Shown here in pieces: positions 50,128-60,646 of a stretch of 64,000 nt of DNA. Location of the stretch: positions 1,240,001-1,304,000 of the forward strand of contig NZ_CP130613.1 in NCBI RefSeq assembly GCF_030623445.1. Reading direction: 5' to 3'. A program made the position numbers and the translations under genes. Each line of letters opens with the position of its first letter. Positions within the stretch are counted from its first letter, which is position 1. The notes under the pieces are model-generated. The model had not been told where the DNA came from and searched no databases. It saw nothing but the letters and a program-made list of their open reading frames with translations. Source of the DNA: Pseudogemmatithrix spongiicola. GTDB taxonomy: Bacteria; Gemmatimonadota; Gemmatimonadetes; Gemmatimonadales; Gemmatimonadaceae.

Positions 50128-51206
50128 TCACATACTAAGTGCACAGCTTATCGCACGCCCAGATGTGGGTGAGGTGACCTGGGGCAGGCTAGGCTTCAGT
50201 TCTCCTCCAAGAGAAAGGACGCCATGACCTACACCCAGATCACCCACGAAGAAAGGTACGCCATTTCCGCGCTGCGGAAGCTGGGGTACTCCAGCGCGGC
50301 GATTGCGCGCGAGCTCGGACGCGCCCCGAGCACCATCAGTCGCGAGGTGCGTCGCAATGCGTGGCGCACGCTTGGCCGCACGTACTGGGTCGACCGCGCG
50401 CAGTCCTATACGAACGAGCGCCGGCGCACGTCGCGCCGGAATACGCAGTTCACGGCGGACGAATGGGCCTTCGTCGAATACTGGATCCGCCAGGACTGGA
50501 GCCCGGAGCAGATCGTGGGCTTCCACGCGCGCTTCGGCATCCGCACGCCGAGCCACGAGTCGATCTATCGGTACATCCACGCCGATCGCGAGCGCGGCGG
50601 GACGTTGTACACCCACCTGCGCGTGATGACGAAGAACCTGCGGAAGCGCTACGGCACCTACGACAGCCGCGGACGCCTCGCGGGGAAGCGGCACATCTCG
50701 ACGCGGCCGCCGGGCGCGGAGCATCGCTCGCGCTTCGGACACTGGGAGGGCGACACGGTGATGGGAAGCACGACGGACACCGCATGCATCCTGACGCTCG
50801 TCGAGCGGAAGTCCGGCTTCATCGCGATCGGGCAGCTCGACTCGCGCCAGGCGCCGGAGACGAACGCCCGCCTCCGTCAGCTCATCCTGGCGCAACCGCG
50901 GCCGGTGCGGACCATCACGCTCGACAACGGGACCGAGTTCCACTCCTACGAGAAGCTCGAGGCGGTCGTCGACGCCAAGTGCTACTTCGCCACGCCGCAT
51001 CACTCGTGGGAGCGTGGCAGCAACGAGAATGCCAACGGATTGATCCGGCAGTACCTGCCGAAGCGACGTTCGATGAGGGGGCTCACGCAGCGCGACTGCC
51101 AGCGCATTGCGGACAAGCTCAACCGTCGACCACGCAAGCGACTCGGCTTCAGAACGCCGGCGGAAGTCTATGCGGCCTAACCCTCACCGGTGCACTTCAA
51201 AGTTGA
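50128..51206 (+). mobile_element. IS30-family element A
   Basis: Contains one IS30-type transposase gene. Candidate ends share AAGTGCAC (TCACATACTAAGTGCAC at left, and the inverted TCAACTTTGAAGTGCAC at right), 12 of 17 matches. No target duplication is clear, and the left end may be eroded, so the boundaries are approximate. Confidence 0.6.
50224..51180 (+). CDS. IS30-family transposase A
   Basis: 318 residues. N-terminal helix-turn-helix (YAISALRKLGYSSAAIARELG, then GRAPSTISREV), then the DDE catalytic domain: HWEGDTVMG (first Asp), TLDNGTEFH (second Asp), and SWERGSNENANGLIRQYLPK (Glu). All three residues are present, so it is probably active. GAAAGGA is upstream of the ATG. It reads against the surrounding cassette genes. 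Confidence 0.93.
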   Translation: MTYTQITHEERYAISALRKLGYSSAAIARELGRAPSTISREVRRNAWRTLGRTYWVDRAQSYTNERRRTSRRNTQFTADEWAFVEYWIRQDWSPEQIVGFHARFGIRTPSHESIYRYIHADRERGGTLYTHLRVMTKNLRKRYGTYDSRGRLAGKRHISTRPPGAEHRSRFGHWEGDTVMGSTTDTACILTLVERKSGFIAIGQLDSRQAPETNARLRQLILAQPRPVRTITLDNGTEFHSYEKLEAVVDAKCYFATPHHSWERGSNENANGLIRQYLPKRRSMRGLTQRDCQRIADKLNRRPRKRLGFRTPAEVYAA

Positions 51207-51600: not shown

Positions 51601-52825
51601 TGAATTCAAGCAATCAATGCAACAGCTTCGTCGAAGACTTCCGCGGGAGTGCGGAAGTCGAGCGTCTTGCGAGGCCGCCCATTGAGCTGAGCGGCGACGG
51701 CATCGAGCTGCCGCTGCGTAACGTTGGCGAGACTCGCGCCCGTGGGGAAGTACTGCCGTAAGAGGCCGTTCGTGTTCTCGTTGGTGCCGCGCTGCCACGG
51801 ACTGTACGGATCGCAGAAGTAGACCTGCACGCCGGTGGCGACGGTGAAGCGCTGGTGGTGCGCGAGTTCCTTGCCGCGATCCCACGTGAGCGAGCGCGTG
51901 ACGTGCAGCGGCAGGCGCCGCATCTGGCGGATGAGCGCGGGCACCACGCGGCTCGGCTCCTTGCTGGCGACCTTCACCAGGATGGCGAAGCGCGACGTGC
52001 GCTCGACGAGCGTGGCGATGTGCGTGTTGTCGCCGCCGGCGAGGAGGTCGCCCTCCCAGTGGCCGGGGACCGCGCGGTCCTCCACCTCGGCCGGGCGCGC
52101 ACTGATGGAGATGGCGTCGACGATCTGCCCGCGGCCTTGGCCCTTGCGCGTGGACGCGCGCGAGCGCCGCACGACGCGTCCCGTGCGCAGGTGCTTCAGC
52201 AGTTCCTTCTTCAGCACGCCGCGCGCCTGGACGTACAGCGAGCGGTAGATCGTCTCGTGCGACACGTGCAGCTCCGGCTCGTGCGGGTAGGTGTTGCGGA
52301 GCCACGCGCTGATCTGTTCCGGTGACCAGCGCCGCTTGAGCTTCGCTGCAATGAGATAGCGCAGTCGCGGCCGGGACGCGAGGCGGCAGGCCTTCGGCCG
52401 GCGCGCGGACTTCCACGCGACCGCGTCGGCCCGGACGGCCCGATACTTCGTCGGGCCCCCATGACGTGCGACCTCACGACTGATGGTCGATGCCGCACGG
52501 CCCAAGGCGCGGCCGATCGCTCGGTAGGATTCGCCGGCGGCGAGCCCGCGCGAGATGCGCTCTCGTTCGTCGAGCGAGAGCGCCAACGCGGAGCGCGCAC
52601 GCAGGCGTGGCGAGATGCCCCCTTGCTTGCGAATCACGCCGTGGAGGGCGCCGGGATCCTTGGCGAGGTCACGGGCGATCTCGCGGACCGAGTCGCCGGC
52701 GCGATAGCGCGCCCAGAGTTCAGCGCGCTGCTGCCACGTGTAGCCGTGCGGGCTGGGGATGAACATCGCAACTACCTCCATATAGAAGGAACTATGGAAG
52801 GTGTTGCATCGACCCTCTGAATCCA
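51601..52825 (-). mobile_element. IS30-family element B
   Basis: Terminal inverted repeats: TGAATTCAAGCAATCAATGC at 51601 and, inverted, TGGATTCAGAGGGTCGATGC at 52825; both continue AACA-CTTC. GTCTG occurs at 51595-51599 and again at 52826-52830 and is a possible target duplication. The element abuts attC-like site 7 on its right side. Confidence 0.85.
51606..52766 (-). CDS. IS30-family transposase B
   Basis: 386 residues from the ATG with GGAGG eight bases upstream. Two helix-turn-helix regions (WARYRAGDSVREIARDLAK and SRGLAAGESYRAIGRALG) are followed by the DDE domain: HWEGDLLAG, TWDRGKELAHH, and WQRGTNENTNGLLRQYFP. It is related to transposase A but from a different IS30 subgroup, being longer and with different ends. 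Confidence 0.93.
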   Translation of the reverse strand: MFIPSPHGYTWQQRAELWARYRAGDSVREIARDLAKDPGALHGVIRKQGGISPRLRARSALALSLDERERISRGLAAGESYRAIGRALGRAASTISREVARHGGPTKYRAVRADAVAWKSARRPKACRLASRPRLRYLIAAKLKRRWSPEQISAWLRNTYPHEPELHVSHETIYRSLYVQARGVLKKELLKHLRTGRVVRRSRASTRKGQGRGQIVDAISISARPAEVEDRAVPGHWEGDLLAGGDNTHIATLVERTSRFAILVKVASKEPSRVVPALIRQMRRLPLHVTRSLTWDRGKELAHHQRFTVATGVQVYFCDPYSPWQRGTNENTNGLLRQYFPTGASLANVTQRQLDAVAAQLNGRPRKTLDFRTPAEVFDEAVALIA

Positions 52826-52942: not shown

Positions 52943-53887
52943 CTATTCGCCAGGCATCGGAGTAGCCACCAGCACCGCGGTTACCACCAGCACGAGCACT
53001 CCCGCCGCGAGCTCCACGAGTGAAGAGCGTCGAAGCGCCGTACTACCTGATGACTGCCCCAGCGACGGAAGCACACGCCGCCAATTGTATGCGCCCGTCC
53101 CAGCAACAACGACGAGAAGCGCAAGCTTAAGCAGAAGCGTGCGCCCGTACACGCTTTGCCAAAGCGCGGCCGCACTACCGAGGTTGACCCATGCAGTCGC
53201 GAGACCCGTGACCGCAAGCAGCGAGGCAAAGATGAGAGCCGTGGGACTGAACGCACGCACAAGTGCGGCGACTCGCGCATCTGCGCTGCTTGCGTGCTCT
53301 GTGCTCACTCGACCCGCAGCAGGGACCGCTACGAACGTCAGCAGCGCCAGGCTCCCGAGCCATCCACCGGCGCCGACCACATGGACAAACTGCGTCGCAA
53401 TCGCCAGCATCGGCTGCGCCGCAGCTGCTGGATGGCCAGACCACGGTTGCGCCACAGTGAATGCGAACACTGCGCCAGCGAGTGCCGCCCAACTGGCAAT
53501 GGTGTTCCCTCGTAGTCGAGGTGCGATCCAAGTCACTGTGAGGGCACTGACTAGCGCCACCCACCACGTGCGTCCCCAACCCGCGCGAAACAGGAGTGCG
53601 GAGAGCGACTCGCCCGACGGTGCAACGTCACCACCGAACACCGCAGCGTGCTGCGCGCCGAGTCTCGCCAACGTTGCGAGCAGTGCCACCAACCCGAGTG
53701 CGTCGATCCACCGCGGAAGCGTGGAGTCGATGGCATCCCGCAACTCCCGAGCATCCGGCCCTGCATAACGACGCAATACCACGAATCGCAATGCGAGCGT
53801 GCCCAGTAGCAGAACCGTGCAGGCGGACAGTACCGCCCGAATTGCCACGAAGGCCGGAGACTCGACCCCGAAGACGCTCTCCATCAT
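52943..53887 (-). CDS. copD: Copper resistance membrane protein CopD
   Basis: 314 residues with about eight membrane helices. IDALGLVALLATLARLG, WWVALVSALTVTWIAPRL and QFVHVVGAGGWLGSLALL (His in the helix) are CopD features. LKLALLVVVAGTGAYNWRRVLP near the end is the conserved C-terminal motif (YNWRRV). CopD takes copper from CopC across the inner membrane. ATGA overlap with copC. Its stop is followed by attC-like site 7. Confidence 0.88.
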   Translation of the reverse strand: MMESVFGVESPAFVAIRAVLSACTVLLLGTLALRFVVLRRYAGPDARELRDAIDSTLPRWIDALGLVALLATLARLGAQHAAVFGGDVAPSGESLSALLFRAGWGRTWWVALVSALTVTWIAPRLRGNTIASWAALAGAVFAFTVAQPWSGHPAAAAQPMLAIATQFVHVVGAGGWLGSLALLTFVAVPAAGRVSTEHASSADARVAALVRAFSPTALIFASLLAVTGLATAWVNLGSAAALWQSVYGRTLLLKLALLVVVAGTGAYNWRRVLPSLGQSSGSTALRRSSLVELAAGVLVLVVTAVLVATPMPGE

Positions 53888-54303
53888 CGAGCGGTCAGCT
53901 CACGATGCGAGGATGGCGGCGCTGCGGAGCGTGCCGCGAGGACCTCGAACGTGAACGTGCCACGCACTGGATGGCCGTCATCACCCGTGACTTGCCACCG
54001 CACCGTGTAACGACCTGGCGCGAGAGCTCCCACAATGTTCGCGATCACGGTCTTGTCATCGTCCTGGGCGAACTGAAGCGGATCCAAGCGGATGGCCATC
54101 TCGCCGTGGTGCAACGTTACGCGGGTGAGCGAGAGATCAAGTGATTCATTAAACGTGAGCGCAACTTCGCGTGGCGCTTCTGCGGAGCGACTGTCGGCGG
54201 CTGGCGTCGACTTGAGCAGGCGAGGATGGGCGCTCGCGGCGCTCAGCGGGATGGCGAGGGCAAGTACAGCGATGAAGGCAAGCGAACGAAGGGAATTGCG
54301 CAT
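53884..54303 (-). CDS. copC: Copper-binding periplasmic protein CopC
   Basis: 139 residues. Signal peptide ends SAASA and the mature protein starts HPRLLKSTPAADS, placing the copper-binding N-terminal His. The beta barrel continues AIRLDPLQFAQDDDKTVIANIVGALAPGRYTVRWQVTGDDGHPVRG, where the D-x-H supplies the other ligands. It binds Cu(II) in the periplasm and hands it to CopD. The operator TTTAC-N5-GTAAA lies 27 bases upstream of its start. Confidence 0.92.
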   Translation of the reverse strand: MRNSLRSLAFIAVLALAIPLSAASAHPRLLKSTPAADSRSAEAPREVALTFNESLDLSLTRVTLHHGEMAIRLDPLQFAQDDDKTVIANIVGALAPGRYTVRWQVTGDDGHPVRGTFTFEVLAARSAAPPSSHRELTAR

Positions 54304-54329: not shown

Positions 54330-54344
54330 TTTACTCTGTGTAAA
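54330..54344 (-). promoter_or_regulatory. Operator copy 1: TTTAC-N5-GTAAA before copC
   Basis: TTTACTCTGTGTAAA, a 5-bp inverted repeat with 5-bp spacer. The same dyad occurs twice between the divergent SnoaL-like and copA genes. It is the presumed site of the BlaI-type repressor of the island. Confidence 0.72.
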
Positions 54345-54407
54345 ATATTACTGTCGGCTGGCCGCGCCGCAAGGGGCACAGCCCTTCGTCGCCTTCCGGT
54401 GCAGGCA

Positions 54408-55445
54408 TTACGGCGCTGAGCGACGCGCGGCCTCGTGCGGGCATCCATCGCCCCCAAACGACCAGCCGCGGCAGAAGAGATGCGTGAGTGGGTTCGCCTC
54501 CGGATGGTCGCAATGCGCTGGCCCGTGGGCTGCGTGCTGGCCCGGGTCGCTGAGTGGATGCAACACCATCACGCCGGAACTCCAAGCAAGGAGCAATGCC
54601 ACCGATGCCGCAATGAGCGAACGCGTGGACGTGTGTGATACCACCAGTGCATCCTCGCCGGCAAGACGCCGAATGCGGCGCGGCAACAAATCGGCGCGCT
54701 GAAATCCCACTGTCGCGGCAACGGGAGTCGATGCCCCCCCGCCGAGCTTGAGCACAGCTGAGGCGAGCGGCAACGCGAGGCACAGCGCCACTTCATCGTC
54801 AGCCGTGATCTCCACCTCGTCCTCCAAGTCAGCGGCGACTCGGCGAAGGACGGGAAGCCAAAACAGCAACGAGGCCAGCGAGCGAAGTGCGAACAGACGC
54901 AGCGGATCGCGTCGCCGCAGGTGCACGGCTTCGTGCGCGAGCACGGCGGTGAGCTCGTCAGGTGTAAGTCGCTCGCTGAGGTCGGTCGCAACGACGACCC
55001 GTGGCCGAACCCAACCCGTCGTAAAGGCAGGCATCGGTAGTCCACGCACGGCCCACACTTGCTCGATGCGAAGTCCTGCCGCGAGCGCGGCACGTCCCAT
55101 CGCAGAGTCTGGGCTCACGCGCGCTTGTGGAAGGTCGCGCATGACGCGTCCGTGTCGCCACAGCACCCGCCCCCGCTCCAATACAACGAACACGACGCCC
55201 GCGTAGAGCAGCCAATGCGCAATGTCGTGCACGGGCTCAAGAAATTGGTGCAACGCGACCAAGCACAGCATCGCGAGATGATGTTGCTCGGCCGAGAGCC
55301 ACGGTACCGCGCCGAGCACGTGATGTCCGACGACTGGCGTGACGCCGAGGAGCAGCAGGGCGACAATTGCGAAGAGCAAGAGGCGCCGGCGTCGCTCCTC
55401 CCGGCGTATGACAGGGGGGCGGACGCCGGCGCTCGCCGACGCCAT
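54408..55445 (-). CDS. M56-family (BlaR1-like) membrane protease with His/Cys-rich tail
   Basis: 345 residues with four or so membrane helices. The zinc-protease site HEAVH is at 171-175, within VLAHEAVHLRRRDPL, and ITADDEVA supplies the downstream acidic ligand. BlaR1 relatives end in a penicillin-binding sensor domain; here the extracytoplasmic end is instead a short tail with several His and Cys residues (QHAAHGPAHCDHPEA and later FCRG, GCPHE). This points to direct metal sensing. Its partner repressor is the next gene, four bases away. Confidence 0.82.
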   Translation of the reverse strand: MASASAGVRPPVIRREERRRRLLLFAIVALLLLGVTPVVGHHVLGAVPWLSAEQHHLAMLCLVALHQFLEPVHDIAHWLLYAGVVFVVLERGRVLWRHGRVMRDLPQARVSPDSAMGRAALAAGLRIEQVWAVRGLPMPAFTTGWVRPRVVVATDLSERLTPDELTAVLAHEAVHLRRRDPLRLFALRSLASLLFWLPVLRRVAADLEDEVEITADDEVALCLALPLASAVLKLGGGASTPVAATVGFQRADLLPRRIRRLAGEDALVVSHTSTRSLIAASVALLLAWSSGVMVLHPLSDPGQHAAHGPAHCDHPEANPLTHLFCRGWSFGGDGCPHEAARRSAP

Positions 55446-55449
55446 CGCG

Positions 55450-55914
55450 TTAACCGTCCTGCTCGCGAAGCTTGCGACGAATCAGGCGTGCGAGTTCGGC
55501 TAGCTGCTCGGGATCGCGTTCGGCGAGCACGTCGACGATCGACGCCGTCACCGCTTCGGCACCGAGCGAGAGGATACCCTCCACCGCCCGCCGCGAAGCT
55601 TGCGAGACAAACTCCGGCTCGTCCACGCGCGCCGTGAAATGCAGCAACCCATCCACGCGCCCGCGCGACAGAAACCCCTTGCGCACGAGGCGATTGAGCA
55701 CCGTCGTACTCGTCAGGGGTGAAACAGGATGCTCAGCCCGCAGACGGTCGTGAATCTCTCGCGCACTCAGTGGCCGCGCGGCGTCCCAGCACAGTCGCAT
55801 CAGTCGGGATTCGAGCTCACCTAAGACGGTGCCAACCCCGCTCCCTGAGAGATTCATCGTCTCCGGGAGCCGGGGTGACTTGGGAGAAAGGATACGACGC
55901 TTGCGAGGTGACAT
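55450..55914 (-). CDS. BlaI/MecI/CopY-family repressor
   Basis: 154 residues, winged helix: GELESRLMRLCWDAARPLSAREIHDRL, then STTVLNRLVRKGFLSRGRVDGLLHF, followed by a dimerisation domain ending LAELARLIRRKLREQ. The family binds dyads over its target promoters and is cleaved by the M56 partner when an inducer is sensed. A half-site TACTCTG overlaps its own start. It is the only regulator within the copper island and the likely user of the TTTAC-N5-GTAAA operators. Confidence 0.88.
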   Translation of the reverse strand: MSPRKRRILSPKSPRLPETMNLSGSGVGTVLGELESRLMRLCWDAARPLSAREIHDRLRAEHPVSPLTSTTVLNRLVRKGFLSRGRVDGLLHFTARVDEPEFVSQASRRAVEGILSLGAEAVTASIVDVLAERDPEQLAELARLIRRKLREQDG

Positions 55915-55960
55915 ACTCTGACTCTAGGGGCGAGAGGGTCGGTGCGGCAACCGCGATGAC

Positions 55961-56476
55961 TCAGGGCATCGGCGGATCACTGGGCCGGCGGGCACGGCTA
56001 GCCGTGTGCGTCAGGCGCACGACCCATCGCGCGCCACGGCGCTCAAGAATCGCTGTGCCGCGCCCAACCACGTCAGCCTTGCCGTTGGGCAGGTCCGCGC
56101 TCAGCGCGTAGCGAAACGTGGCCCACGCAAGATTGCCGGACACGCGCGCTTCAATTTCGAAGGGCCGATACCGGAAGTTGCTGAACTCCTTGAGTTCCGG
56201 CGCGAGGTGATTGTCGCGATAGTCCGTCCACCCGCGATTGATGCCGGAGCCCTCAATGACCAGGAGGCTGTCACCGGCGTAGATCGAATCGAGGGCCGCG
56301 AGGTCGCCGCGCTCCGCGGCAGCGAAGAGCGCCTGGATCGCCTGAATCACGGACGCGACCTCAGCGCTCGGCGTCGCTTGGTGGCCAGCGTGTGCGTGGT
56401 CCTGCGCGTTGGCGCGGCCTGCGAGTGCAACGGTCATCGCGACGGCAACGGCGAGGCGGCGAGAGATACCAGACAT
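55961..56476 (-). CDS. Secreted SnoaL/NTF2-like protein
   Basis: 171 residues from the inner ATG; signal peptide ends RANAQ, with His-rich DHAHAGHQ just after it. IQALFAAAERGDLAALDSIYAGDSLLVIEGSGINRGWTDYRDNHL and KADVVGRGTAILERRGARWVVRLTHTASRARR are the NTF2/SnoaL fold. Such small secreted proteins are common in metal-resistance islands of this type, with no proven activity. It is divergent from copA and shares the operator-bearing gap. Confidence 0.75.
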   Translation of the reverse strand: MSGISRRLAVAVAMTVALAGRANAQDHAHAGHQATPSAEVASVIQAIQALFAAAERGDLAALDSIYAGDSLLVIEGSGINRGWTDYRDNHLAPELKEFSNFRYRPFEIEARVSGNLAWATFRYALSADLPNGKADVVGRGTAILERRGARWVVRLTHTASRARRPSDPPMP

Positions 56477-56529
56477 TAGGGCGAGGAGGTTGGAGAAAAG
56501 GGGAAGGAACGACGAACCTGTCAATAGAG

Positions 56530-56544
56530 TCTACTCTGTGTGAA
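56530..56544. promoter_or_regulatory. Operator copy 2, imperfect dyad
   Basis: TCTACTCTGTGTGAA, same spacing as copy 1 with two mismatches between arms. It lies 60 bp before copy 3, about six turns of DNA, so both may lie on one face. Confidence 0.6.
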
Positions 56545-56589
56545 CTGCAGTCGGCAAGTGCCAAAGGATGCAGGGTGGAGAAGAGGGGC

Positions 56590-56604
56590 TTTACAGAACG
56601 TAAA
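56590..56604. promoter_or_regulatory. Operator copy 3 before copA
   Basis: TTTACAGAACGTAAA, a perfect 5-bp inverted repeat with 5-bp spacer, 41 bases before the copA start. It has the same arms as copy 1 but a different spacer. Confidence 0.7.
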
Positions 56605-56644: not shown

Positions 56645-58555
56645 ATGGCCCATTCTTCTCGTGTCAAGCGAACTATTACCGTGACTCAACCGCGTCAAAA
56701 CTTCCACGTCTCGCGCCGGAGCTTCCTCGAGGCTGGTGCACTCCTCGGCGCTGCGGCTGCGCTACCCGAACCGCTCCGCGCGGGCGTTGCCACAGCACCT
56801 TCTCTGAACCCCGGTCTACCCGCGCTTGCTCCTGCGCCCGGCGGCGTGCGCGAGTACGACCTCACTATCGCCGAAACCATTGTGCGACTCGATGGGCGGA
56901 ACGCCCGCGCGACGACGATCAATGGGACCGTGCCCGGGCCTGTGCTGCGATTCCGCGAGGGCGAAGAAGCCGTCATCAGGGTGCGGAACACGCTGTCGGA
57001 AGACACTTCCATCCACTGGCACGGCATCATTTTGCCGCCCGAGATGGATGGCGTGCCGGGCTTAAGCTTCCCGGGCATTCGACCCGGCGAGACCTTTGAG
57101 TACCGATTCGCGGTGAAGCAGGCTGGCACTTATTGGTATCACAGCCACTCGGGGTTGCAGGAGCAGCTCGGCCACTACGGCGCATTGATCATCGAGCCGG
57201 CCGAGCGCAGCGGCCCCGCTTATGACCGCGAGCACGCGCTGGTGCTGTCCGACTGGACCTTCGAGAACCCGTACCGCGTCCTCTCGCGGCTCAAGAAGCA
57301 GCCGGACGCGTACAACTATCAGCGCCGGACGGTGGCCGACTTCTTCCGAGACGTCGCGCGCGACGGATTCTCGGCCACCATCAGTGATCGCTGGATGTGG
57401 GCCGGAATGCGGATGAATCCGACGGACATCGCGGACGTCACTGGCGCGACGTACAGCTACCTGCTGAACGGCCGCACCGCCGAGGAGCCTTGGACGGCGC
57501 AGTTCGCGCCGGGAGAACGCGTTCTGCTTCGCGTGATCAACGCGGCGGCGGGTTCGTACTTCGATGTACGCGTACCGGGCCTACCGATGACCGTCGTGCA
57601 AGTGAGCGGGCAGCCAGTGGAGCCCGTGGAGACTGAGGAGTTCCGCATCGCGATTGCAGAAACGTATGACGTGATTGTGCAGCTCCCCGACGACCGGGCC
57701 TACGCCGTGTACGCCGAGGCGATGGATCGCAGCGGCTTCACCGCAGCGACGTTGGCGCCTCGCGCCGGAGTGCTCGCCGACCTTCCGTCGCGTCGGCGCC
57801 GTCCGCTGCTCACGATGGCCGATATGGGGATGGATCACTCCGCGATGGGTGGGATGGACGGGATGGACCACGCCGAGATGGGACACGACATGCCGCCCAG
57901 CGCTCCGGCGACAGCCGCAGCCGATGACGAGCACGCGGGGCACGAGATGTCGGAGATGGGCGATGCCGCAGCGTTGCGAGCACCTGGGACGCTACCACCG
58001 GAGACGCCGCACGGCACCGACACGCACGGCAACGGCAACGCGATGGTCCCGATGAGCACGAAGAGTCGACTCGCCGAGCCGGGTGCGGGCCTGGGCGAGG
58101 ATGGCCGTCGCGTGTTGCTGTACTCGCAGCTGCGATCCGCGGCTCCCTACGCGGAGTTTCGCGCGCCGACGCGCGAAATCGAGATTCATCTCACGGGCAA
58201 TATGGAGCGCTTCACGTGGGCCATCGACGGTGTGCCCTATGATGAAGCGGAGCCCATCGAGTTCACCTACGGCGAGCGGATTCGCTTGACGATGGTGAAC
58301 GACACGATGATGAACCACCCGATGCACTTGCACGGGATGTGGATGGAGTTGGAGAACGGACAGGGCGACCGTAGCCCGCGGATCCACACCATCAACGTGA
58401 AGCCGGCGGAGCGCGTGTCGCTGTTGGTCACGGCGGACGCCCCTGGGCGATGGGCGTTTCATTGCCATGTGCTCTACCATATGGAGGTCGGGATGTTTCG
58501 TGAAGTGCGCGTGAGTGCGCCGACCGGCCACGAGGGGCATGGCGATGCCGAGTGA
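56645..58555 (+). CDS. copA: Copper resistance multicopper oxidase CopA
   Basis: 636 residues. The Tat signal is SRRSFLEAG, then three cupredoxin domains. Copper ligands: HWHG and HSHSG in domain 1, HPMHLHG and HCHVLYHMEVGM in domain 3, giving complete type 1, 2 and 3 sites. Between domains 2 and 3 is a Met-rich copper store, MADMGMDHSAMGGMDGMDHAE and MGHDMPP. It oxidises Cu(I) in the periplasm. The start was set at MAHSSRVKR, before the Tat signal. It overlaps copB. Confidence 0.96.
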   Translation: MAHSSRVKRTITVTQPRQNFHVSRRSFLEAGALLGAAAALPEPLRAGVATAPSLNPGLPALAPAPGGVREYDLTIAETIVRLDGRNARATTINGTVPGPVLRFREGEEAVIRVRNTLSEDTSIHWHGIILPPEMDGVPGLSFPGIRPGETFEYRFAVKQAGTYWYHSHSGLQEQLGHYGALIIEPAERSGPAYDREHALVLSDWTFENPYRVLSRLKKQPDAYNYQRRTVADFFRDVARDGFSATISDRWMWAGMRMNPTDIADVTGATYSYLLNGRTAEEPWTAQFAPGERVLLRVINAAAGSYFDVRVPGLPMTVVQVSGQPVEPVETEEFRIAIAETYDVIVQLPDDRAYAVYAEAMDRSGFTAATLAPRAGVLADLPSRRRRPLLTMADMGMDHSAMGGMDGMDHAEMGHDMPPSAPATAAADDEHAGHEMSEMGDAAALRAPGTLPPETPHGTDTHGNGNAMVPMSTKSRLAEPGAGLGEDGRRVLLYSQLRSAAPYAEFRAPTREIEIHLTGNMERFTWAIDGVPYDEAEPIEFTYGERIRLTMVNDTMMNHPMHLHGMWMELENGQGDRSPRIHTINVKPAERVSLLVTADAPGRWAFHCHVLYHMEVGMFREVRVSAPTGHEGHGDAE

Positions 58556-59333
58556 ACGTCGAGGCCGGCGGACGTCGCTGCTGCTGGCGGGACTTCTCAG
58601 CGCGAGCACGGTGCTCTTTTCGTCGGCTGGCCGCGTCCACGCACAAGGGCGCGATAGCGTACCGCACGATGCCTCCCACGGAATGAGGTGGGGGCGAGAG
58701 ACCTTCGTGCTGACGGAAGTGCTGGAGTACGACGCGGCCGGTGCTGCACGTCCCCTGCTTTTCGATGTGCTCGCGTGGACCGGCGGAGCGAGCCGCCGCC
58801 TGTGGTTCAAGGCCGACGGCAGCGCCGCGACCAGTGGGCGCGCGACGCACGGCGAGTACCAAGTGCTCTATGGCCGGATGCTCACGCCGTGGTGGGACGT
58901 GCAGTTGGGCGCCCGCGCCGACGTGCGCACGGCACCGGGCGCGAGCGCGTCGCGAGCGGGCGCCTTGGTCGGTCTGCAGGGATTGGCGCCGGGCTGGTTC
59001 GAGCTCGAGCCGTCGCTGTTCGTCACGACGGACGGCAATCTCTCCTTCGATCTGACCGCCTCGTACGACCTCTTCCTGACGCAACGGCTCGTGCTGCAGC
59101 CGCGCCTGGAGTCCACCCTGTCACTCAAGGACGACGACGCGTTCGGCGTCGGGCGAGGGTTGAGCAGTACTTCGTTCGGGTTGCGTACACGGTTCGAGAT
59201 TCGGCGTGAGTTCGCGCCGTATCTCGGCGTGGTCTGGGAGCGTGGCTATGGGCGGAGCGCGGAGTTGGCGCGGCTTGCTGGTGAATCGGCCAGCGAGACG
59301 CTGATCGTCGCGGGGCTGCGGTTGTGGAGGTAG
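58539..59333 (+). CDS. copB: Outer-membrane copper resistance protein CopB
   Basis: 264 residues overlapping the end of copA by 17 bases. Signal peptide ends RVHAQ. VLTEVLEYDAAGAARPLLFDVLAWTGG, GATHGEYQVLYGRML-type strands, and PHLGVVWER near the end (written PYLGVVWERGYG here) are the CopB barrel motifs, with SLSSTSFGLRTRFEIRREFAPYL before it. It resides in the outer membrane and accompanies CopA. The usual Met/His-rich N-terminal part is reduced. Confidence 0.88.
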   Translation: MAMPSERRGRRTSLLLAGLLSASTVLFSSAGRVHAQGRDSVPHDASHGMRWGRETFVLTEVLEYDAAGAARPLLFDVLAWTGGASRRLWFKADGSAATSGRATHGEYQVLYGRMLTPWWDVQLGARADVRTAPGASASRAGALVGLQGLAPGWFELEPSLFVTTDGNLSFDLTASYDLFLTQRLVLQPRLESTLSLKDDDAFGVGRGLSSTSFGLRTRFEIRREFAPYLGVVWERGYGRSAELARLAGESASETLIVAGLRLWR

Positions 59334-59612: not shown

Positions 59613-60646
59613 TGTCGGTTCTAAGGACGTTGTTCACGCTGCATGAGGAAGTGGAGCAGCGGCGGGACGCGGCCGAGCGACCGGTGCGGCCGTTCGACGT
59701 TGTAGCAATCTAGGAAGTCGGGCAGCGCCGCGTTGCGGTGCGCCGAGGTCCGGTATGGCTTCTTGTAGGCCCAGCGGCGGAGCGCGGTCTGGATGAAGCG
59801 CTCCGCCTTGCCGTTCGTCTGCGGGCGGTAGGGCTTGGTGCGCAGGTGCCGGATCCCGTGCGCGGCCAGCGCGGCCTGCACCGCGTGGCTCGTGTACGCC
59901 TTGGCGTTGTCGGTCATCACACCGGTGACGGCGATGCCCAGCTGCGCAAACCAGCGGCGCGCCGCCTCGAGGAAGCGGGTGCACGCCGCCGCGTCCTGTG
60001 TCGGCAGCAGCGCCGCGTACGCGAGCCGCGTCGCGTCGTCGACCGCGACGTGGAGATGGTCCTGCCCGAGCCCCCGACGGCGGCCGACCTTCGAGCGGTT
60101 GCCGTGCGCGCGATGGCCCGCCGTGACGAAGCGATCGAGGGCCTTCGTGTCGACATGCACGAGCTCGCCGGGCGTCTCGCGCTGGTAGCGCGGCCCGCCC
60201 GTCGCCCCCGGGCCCTTCAGCCGGCCCTGGCCCGCGCGCGTGAGGACCCGGCCCACGGTCGAGACCGCGAGCCCGAGCCGCTCCGCGATCTCCGGCCCGG
60301 TGAGCCGCGTCGCGCGCAGGCGGAGAATCCGCTCGATGAGCGCCGGCCGCGTGGCGGTCGGCGAGCGATGCGGGCGCGAGGAGCGGTCGGCCAGCGCCGC
60401 CCAGCCCCCGGCCGCGAAGCGGCGCAGCCACTTGTAAGCCGTGCTCGGGCTGATGTGGAGGGCCGCGGCGACGGCGCGCACCGGCTCGCCGTCGAGGACC
60501 ACCCGGCGGACGAGCTCGGCTCGCCCCCAGGCGGTCAATCGCGCATTGTTGTGGATGTTCACTGAGGCCTCTGGCTGAAGGTTGGGTGGCTCGCACCTCC
60601 AGCTTCCTCAGTTATGCCTCAGTGAACAACCTCTTTAGAACCGACA
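59613..60646 (-). mobile_element. IS481-family insertion in the DUF411 gene
   Basis: 1034 bp with terminal inverted repeats starting TGTCGGTTCTAA at both ends. Exact 6-bp target duplication GCTAGG flanks it (59607-59612 and 60647-60652). A single transposase gene fills it. The perfect duplication means a recent insertion. Confidence 0.93.
59621..60562 (-). CDS. IS481-family transposase
   Basis: 313 residues. Two helix-turn-helix regions (RAVAAALHISPSTAYKWLRRF and LTGPEIAERLGLAVSTVGRVL) precede the rve-type DDE domain: VHVDTKALDRF, TGVMTDNAKAYTS and QTNGKAERFIQTALRRWAY. All three acids are present. The C-terminal segment CYNVERPHRSLGRVPPL is typical of IS481. It reads opposite to the gene it disrupts. 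Confidence 0.95.
   Translation of the reverse strand: MNIHNNARLTAWGRAELVRRVVLDGEPVRAVAAALHISPSTAYKWLRRFAAGGWAALADRSSRPHRSPTATRPALIERILRLRATRLTGPEIAERLGLAVSTVGRVLTRAGQGRLKGPGATGGPRYQRETPGELVHVDTKALDRFVTAGHRAHGNRSKVGRRRGLGQDHLHVAVDDATRLAYAALLPTQDAAACTRFLEAARRWFAQLGIAVTGVMTDNAKAYTSHAVQAALAAHGIRHLRTKPYRPQTNGKAERFIQTALRRWAYKKPYRTSAHRNAALPDFLDCYNVERPHRSLGRVPPLLHFLMQREQRP

Follow-up and report, generated by a model that had tools for sequence, protein, structure and literature searches.

A conserved dyad at copper genes as the probable operator of a BlaI repressor, and an M56 protease as candidate copper sensor, in Gemmatimonadota

The window analyzed here is a 64,000-nt stretch of the Pseudogemmatithrix spongiicola genome (NZ_CP130613.1, positions 1,240,001 to 1,304,000) that carries a copper island with genes for a BlaI-family repressor and an M56 (BlaR1-like) membrane metalloprotease, flanked on both sides by copies of a 15-bp dyad, TTTAC-N5-GTAAA. 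We propose, with a probability of roughly 0.7, that the dyads are operators of the BlaI encoded between them and that the M56 protein is a copper sensor that would inactivate BlaI and thereby derepress the regulon. We conclude that the dyad is a genuine operator, conserved at the genes of a copper regulon, and that a new mode of copper sensing is plausible. The initial annotation of this DNA described the dyads and overlooked the main point, the M56 partner with its Cys/His tail.

Distribution, position and conservation of the dyad

The genome, a single contig of 3.26 Mb, contains five exact TTTAC-N5-GTAAA sites, all intergenic by a simple gene call and all at copper genes. They precede copC, the multicopper oxidase gene copA, two operons of the cusCBA type (582075 and 1329145), and an operon that includes a copper-type P-type ATPase gene (1324736), whereas the reversed control pattern has no match in the whole genome. 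Sites with one mismatch, also intergenic, precede a Rieske/cytochrome b cluster, a TonB receptor gene, and a gene whose Met-rich product has a Metal_resist domain; a relaxed TTTAY-N5-RTAAA search added only the Rieske site. The matches are few and lie ahead of genes rather than scattered inside them, and the proposal of the initial annotation that the dyads mark a copper regulon holds for all five exact sites. The two cusCBA operons (L011:7241-13079 and L010:12336-18063; G000:C1 near 582 kb and 1329 kb) share near-identical CusA/CusB stretches, carry the identical dyad TTTACCTTACGTAAA, and each come after a LOG-family gene. Before the 582-kb copy, a P-type ATPase gene seems to be represented by its 3′ part alone, and the two operons look like a partial duplication of the island.

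Within the window, all three dyad copies lie where they had been reported (each recorded without strand). Dyad 1 (54330..54344, TTTACTCTGTGTAAA) is an exact match 26 bp upstream of copC, and dyad 3 (56590..56604, TTTACAGAACGTAAA) is an exact match 40 bp upstream of the copA ATG at 56645. Dyad 2 (56530..56544, TCTACTCTGTGTGAA) is degenerate, with two mismatches, and lies 53 bp upstream of the SnoaL-blaI-M56 operon. At the position of dyad 2 the nearest relative, L014, has the perfect dyad TTTACGCGGAGTAAA, so the window copy looks like a drifted site. The site before copC is kept 18 to 27 bp upstream of that gene in L014–L016, L018, and L052. The 60-bp distance noted earlier between dyads 2 and 3 is correct for their starts in the window, but the offset is not conserved (60, 48, 62, 54, and 59 bp in five relatives). 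A half site said to overlap the blaI start was dropped: it is merely the 7-mer TACTCTG near 55916, expected at chance level several times per 64 kb, and no dyad with up to two mismatches occurs there. The window alone holds four matches with up to two mismatches versus 1.2 expected, and 2 of 100 shuffles reach four; because this excess is slight, it is the comparison with relatives and the search of the whole genome that carry the case.

Dyads 1 and 2 are associated with promoter-like sequences. Dyad 1 is abutted by a −10-like TAATAT (54345..54350, minus strand) with a −35-like TTGCGG at 54367–54372 and a 16-bp spacer, an arrangement that is the same in L014, L015, L016, and L052. A −10-like TAGACT (56528..56533, minus strand) overlaps dyad 2, with a −35-like TTGCCG at 56552–56557, and this placement recurs at about the same offset in L014, L015, L016, L017, L052, and L069. 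The dyad of the SnoaL-blaI-M56 operon is framed by the two promoter elements, the −10 being formed by the right half of the dyad. This placement and the one before copC are classic repressor positions. The same search found no clear promoter at dyad 3. Of 71 sites, each oriented to its nearest gene, 22 have a −35/−10-like pair at the dyad, versus 3.8 ± 1.8 with shuffled flanks.

For an unbiased test, all 5-mer half-sites at spacings of 0 to 15 were counted in the loci of 24 relatives, with the window's genome excluded. TTTAC-N5 was the top-ranked dyad, with 27 copies in 17 genomes versus 0.03 expected from base composition, and none occurred at any other spacing; TTTAT-N5 ranked third (9 copies in 6 genomes). 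Fourteen held-out loci contained 25 TTTA-N7-TAAA sites and none at other spacings; one of these loci (L095) repeats another (L019), leaving about 22 of the 25 sites independent. The resulting operator consensus is YTTTAY-N5-RTAAAR with an open centre. The CopY/MecI box TACA-N2-TGTA was absent from the 24 loci, and the dyad does differ in spacing from the CopY box TACAnnTGTA, as the initial annotation had stated.

The occurrence of the dyad follows the repressor–protease pair. A first draw, scored for BlaI orthologues, comprised 59 family genomes; 18 had a close orthologue (at least 44% identity) and the remainder had none or only distant ones, and exact dyads lay mostly beside a close orthologue. 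In a second draw, of 298 genomes over the phylum, the M56 partner and the dyad were each scored on their own. Among its 103 family genomes, the dyad was present in 24 of 34 with the M56 gene versus 8 of 69 without it (Fisher P = 2.6e-9), and the reversed control pattern showed no association with M56 presence. In the window's genus the separation was complete (6/6 genomes with M56, 0/6 without), and 42 of 55 listed dyads lay within 15 kb of an M56 gene. In most loci the dyad stands directly upstream of blaI or its operon, which fits the requirement of autoregulation. Together, these data tie the dyad to this BlaI, as initially proposed, and homologous islands retain the pattern alongside the same type of repressor. 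One genome, G201, carries at least three copies of the copper-type M56 gene and 12 exact dyads.

A similar word is found elsewhere in the phylum. Genomes of genus g69 in family f5 (G248, G072, G131, and others) have many TTTACA-N3-TGTAAA dyads with AT-rich centres and no copper-type M56; G248 has 19 of them and none of the control pattern. These dyads are probably the regulon of a different factor.

The repressor, its protease partner, and a proposed mechanism

The BlaI-family repressor (55450..55914, minus strand) has a winged-helix Penicillinase_R domain (PF03965; 63.4 bits against a cut-off of 22.6) and is the only member of this family in the genome. Its profile matches MecI and BlaI structures, the closest solved one being Mycobacterium tuberculosis BlaI (Rv1846c, 2g9w). 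Like the operators of this family, the dyad has TA steps and sits in the promoters of the blaI operon and of the target genes; its sequence and distribution make it very probably the binding site of this BlaI. The aligned BlaI orthologues lack both a CXC motif, the CopY-type metal motif, and any conserved cysteine, and BlaI itself is therefore unlikely to be the copper sensor.

The M56 gene (54408..55445, minus strand), which adjoins blaI in nearly all relatives' loci, encodes a 345-residue protein with an HEAVH (HExxH) motif in its M56 domain, a feature of BlaR1 and MecR1. The first PDB match to its structure model is Staphylococcus aureus BlaR1 (8exs/8exp), a weak match with template modelling (TM) scores of about 0.4; HtpX and Ste24 are also among the matches. 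A search for Pfam domains did not find the penicillin-binding sensor domain of BlaR1. Instead, the protein ends about 50 residues past its last hydrophobic helix, in a short HCxH...HLFC...CPH tail. Across 23 aligned orthologues the tail residues C312, H322, C325, and H337 never vary and C335 and H314 hardly do; the N-terminal membrane segments likewise have invariant H42, C61, H73, and H77. The residue pattern of the tail looks like a soft-metal site. It is kept in nearly all M56 orthologues down to about 40% identity and also in members of two other families (L084, and L085, where the CPH lies further from the called end), is variant in L060, and is absent from M56 proteins beside distant BlaI genes. 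Searching plasmids by tblastn with the M56 protein yielded just two matches, both to generic M56 proteins. In L057 (G037), an orthologous BlaI–M56 pair lies beside cusCBA; the Cys/His motif of its M56 tail is missing its second half, and the surroundings contain no TTTAY dyad. Joint loss or change of tail and operator may explain this, or a frameshift may be responsible.

These features suggest the following mechanism. A BlaI dimer would bind YTTTAY-N5-RTAAAR and block transcription from the promoters of copCD, its own SnoaL-blaI-M56 operon, and copAB and, remotely, from those of the copper P-type ATPase operon and the two cusCBA operons. Surplus copper outside the cytoplasmic membrane would be bound by Cys and His residues of M56, in the tail and at His42, Cys61, His73, and His77 of the membrane segments. 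Copper binding would activate the HExxH site, leading to inactivation of BlaI by cleavage and to derepression of the regulon; with repressor and protease in one operon under their own operator, the circuit would include feedback. Operator conservation, promoter position, BlaI/M56 linkage, autoregulatory layout, the missing metal motif of BlaI, and the M56 tail were read from the sequences. From these we infer the binding of BlaI to the dyad and, by analogy with BlaR1, copper as the ligand, the topology of the tail, and BlaI proteolysis. We hold with moderate confidence that a BlaR1-type protease has been rebuilt as an extracytoplasmic copper sensor, in which the Cys/His tail would replace the penicillin sensor and copper would trigger BlaI cleavage and derepress the TTTAY-N5-RTAAA regulon.

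The island contains several further genes. On the minus strand lie copD (52943..53887, PF05425), copC (53884..54303, PF04234), and the first gene of the repressor operon (55961..56476), which encodes a probable exported SnoaL-like (DUF4440) protein. This protein has a His-rich start (DHAHAGHQ) and belongs to the copper regulon in many relatives. On the plus strand, copA (56645..58555; PF07731/PF07732/PF00394, TAT_signal) encodes a twin-arginine translocation (Tat)-exported multicopper oxidase and is followed by copB (58539..59333, PF05275). Transposase-like genes or fragments, IS30-like and IS481-like going by appearance alone, flank and interrupt the island (window 50224–51180, 51606–52766, and 59621–60562; L010:18486-18950).

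Alternative explanations

Four other explanations were weighed. The dyad could be a BlaI operator while M56 responds to misfolded proteins, to a metal other than copper (silver, for instance), or to some other envelope stress, the copper genes being just one portion of the output. Quality control is another task of M56 and M48 proteases (the matches include HtpX and Ste24), the copper role of M56 is predicted from sequence, and cusCBA-type pumps handle silver too; yet nearly every recognizable neighbouring target is a copper gene and the conserved tail resembles a soft-metal site, so we regard a non-copper signal as unlikely. Another regulator, such as CsoR, CueR/MerR, or a two-component system, might instead own the dyad and merely co-occur with the island. 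The genome does have a CsoR-like and a weak CueR-like gene elsewhere, and the f5/g69 dyads, which share the outer dyad and are common without a copper-type M56, indicate that a different regulator can use a similar word. However, the genes seen beside the dyads included no other recurrent regulator, the presence of the dyads follows the BlaI/M56 pair even within one genus, and spacing and half-site fit the BlaI family (actinobacterial loci; PMC8457756). CsoR and CueR were rejected as owners, the candidate genes lying far away, and we consider this explanation improbable.

Direct metal binding by BlaI, with M56 as an accessory, would follow the example of CopY, which belongs to the same Pfam family and represses copper export genes. 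CopY-type sensing was rejected for lack of a CXC motif; the lack of a conserved cysteine, the absence of the CopY box from the 24 loci, and the adjacency of M56 to blaI in nearly all loci also make it quite improbable. Finally, the modest count in the window taken by itself would suit functionless AT-rich palindromes arising by chance, an idea that the genome-wide count, clade-wide conservation, strict spacing, and promoter position refute, leaving it next to no credit.

Several observations weigh against the BlaI/M56 copper-sensor interpretation itself. The exact dyad is absent from 10 of the 34 M56-positive family genomes, some of which have TTTAT-N5-ATAAA or one-mismatch variants and some of which have short contigs, and L057, L084, and L097 show no dyad nearby. 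The tail is modelled with low confidence by AlphaFold (predicted local distance difference test, pLDDT, about 35–45), so that the model gives no three-dimensional view of a possible metal site. The excess of −35/−10-like pairs at the dyads is only indicative, because the sites counted include some from related loci, which are not independent. The support for the regulon is sequence evidence, the metal could be silver or zinc instead of copper, and the CueR-like gene (below threshold) and the CsoR-like gene, although far from the dyads, are part of the same genome.

Relation to known repressor–protease systems

BlaI–M56 pairs outside Gram-positives are usually annotated as penicillin-resistance regulators; here a probable signal, operator, and regulon are assigned to one group of such pairs. 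We found no copper-responsive BlaI/BlaR1 system in the literature searched, a negative of little weight, since that literature mostly excluded subscription journals. If correct, our proposal would add a copper-sensing mode undescribed in that literature and separate from CueR, CsoR, CopY, and CusRS, would make the BlaR1 protease a swappable sensor chassis, and would mean that the Gemmatimonadota, which are abundant in soil, have their own system for sensing copper. With the operator consensus, the regulon can be predicted in any genome of the clade.

The system resembles BlaR1–BlaI and MecR1–MecI of S. aureus and Bacillus in its BlaI repressor adjacent to an M56 protease, its autoregulated layout, and the BlaR1 fold match. 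It differs in having a short Cys/His tail where those proteases have a penicillin-binding sensor domain, and in its operator, with 7 bp rather than 6 bp between TA steps, TTTAY half-sites, and copper-gene targets. CopY/CopR of Gram-positives are likewise PF03965 repressors of copper export genes, but CopY senses the metal itself via a C-terminal CXC and binds the consensus RNYKACANNYGTMRNY (PMC7253601). The present BlaI lacks CXC, its dyad is one base pair wider, no cop box (KACANNTGTA/RNYKACANNYGTMRNY) was found as TACA-N2-TGTA in the relatives' loci, and a protease partner is present. Words of MecI/CopY geometry, TACA-N2-TGTA and ACTA-N6-TAGT, do occur near distant BlaI genes of the window's family.

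The initial suggestion of a new operator class stands in part. Clostridium thermocellum BlaI_0696, paired with BlaR1 genes, has a motif of GTCTAT repeats five nucleotides apart, that is, TA-N7-TA; its outer half-site is GTC rather than TT, and its authors infer a beta-lactam response (PMC8457756). Actinobacterial plasmid BlaI loci, scanned as an approach to the M. tuberculosis BlaI motif, gave six ACTA-N7-TAGT sites with a clear peak at a spacing of 7. The dyad thus falls, by its spacing, into a known subclass of BlaI operators, whereas its TTTAY half-site, the copper regulon, and an M56 protease in which a conserved Cys/His tail stands in for the penicillin sensor of BlaR1 appear new. The actinobacterial BlaI–M56 pairs, which include relatives of M. 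tuberculosis BlaI, the closest solved structure, and whose plasmid copies often lie beside copper or heavy-metal genes, differ from the present system in an M56 without the Cys/His tail and in the half-site ACTA rather than TTTA. In the plasmid loci L073, L074, L076, and L077, such tail-less pairs with ACTA-N7-TAGT dyads stand beside copper/heavy-metal P-type ATPases, CopC, and ctaD, and may represent another group of BlaI systems linked to metals, parallel to the present one.
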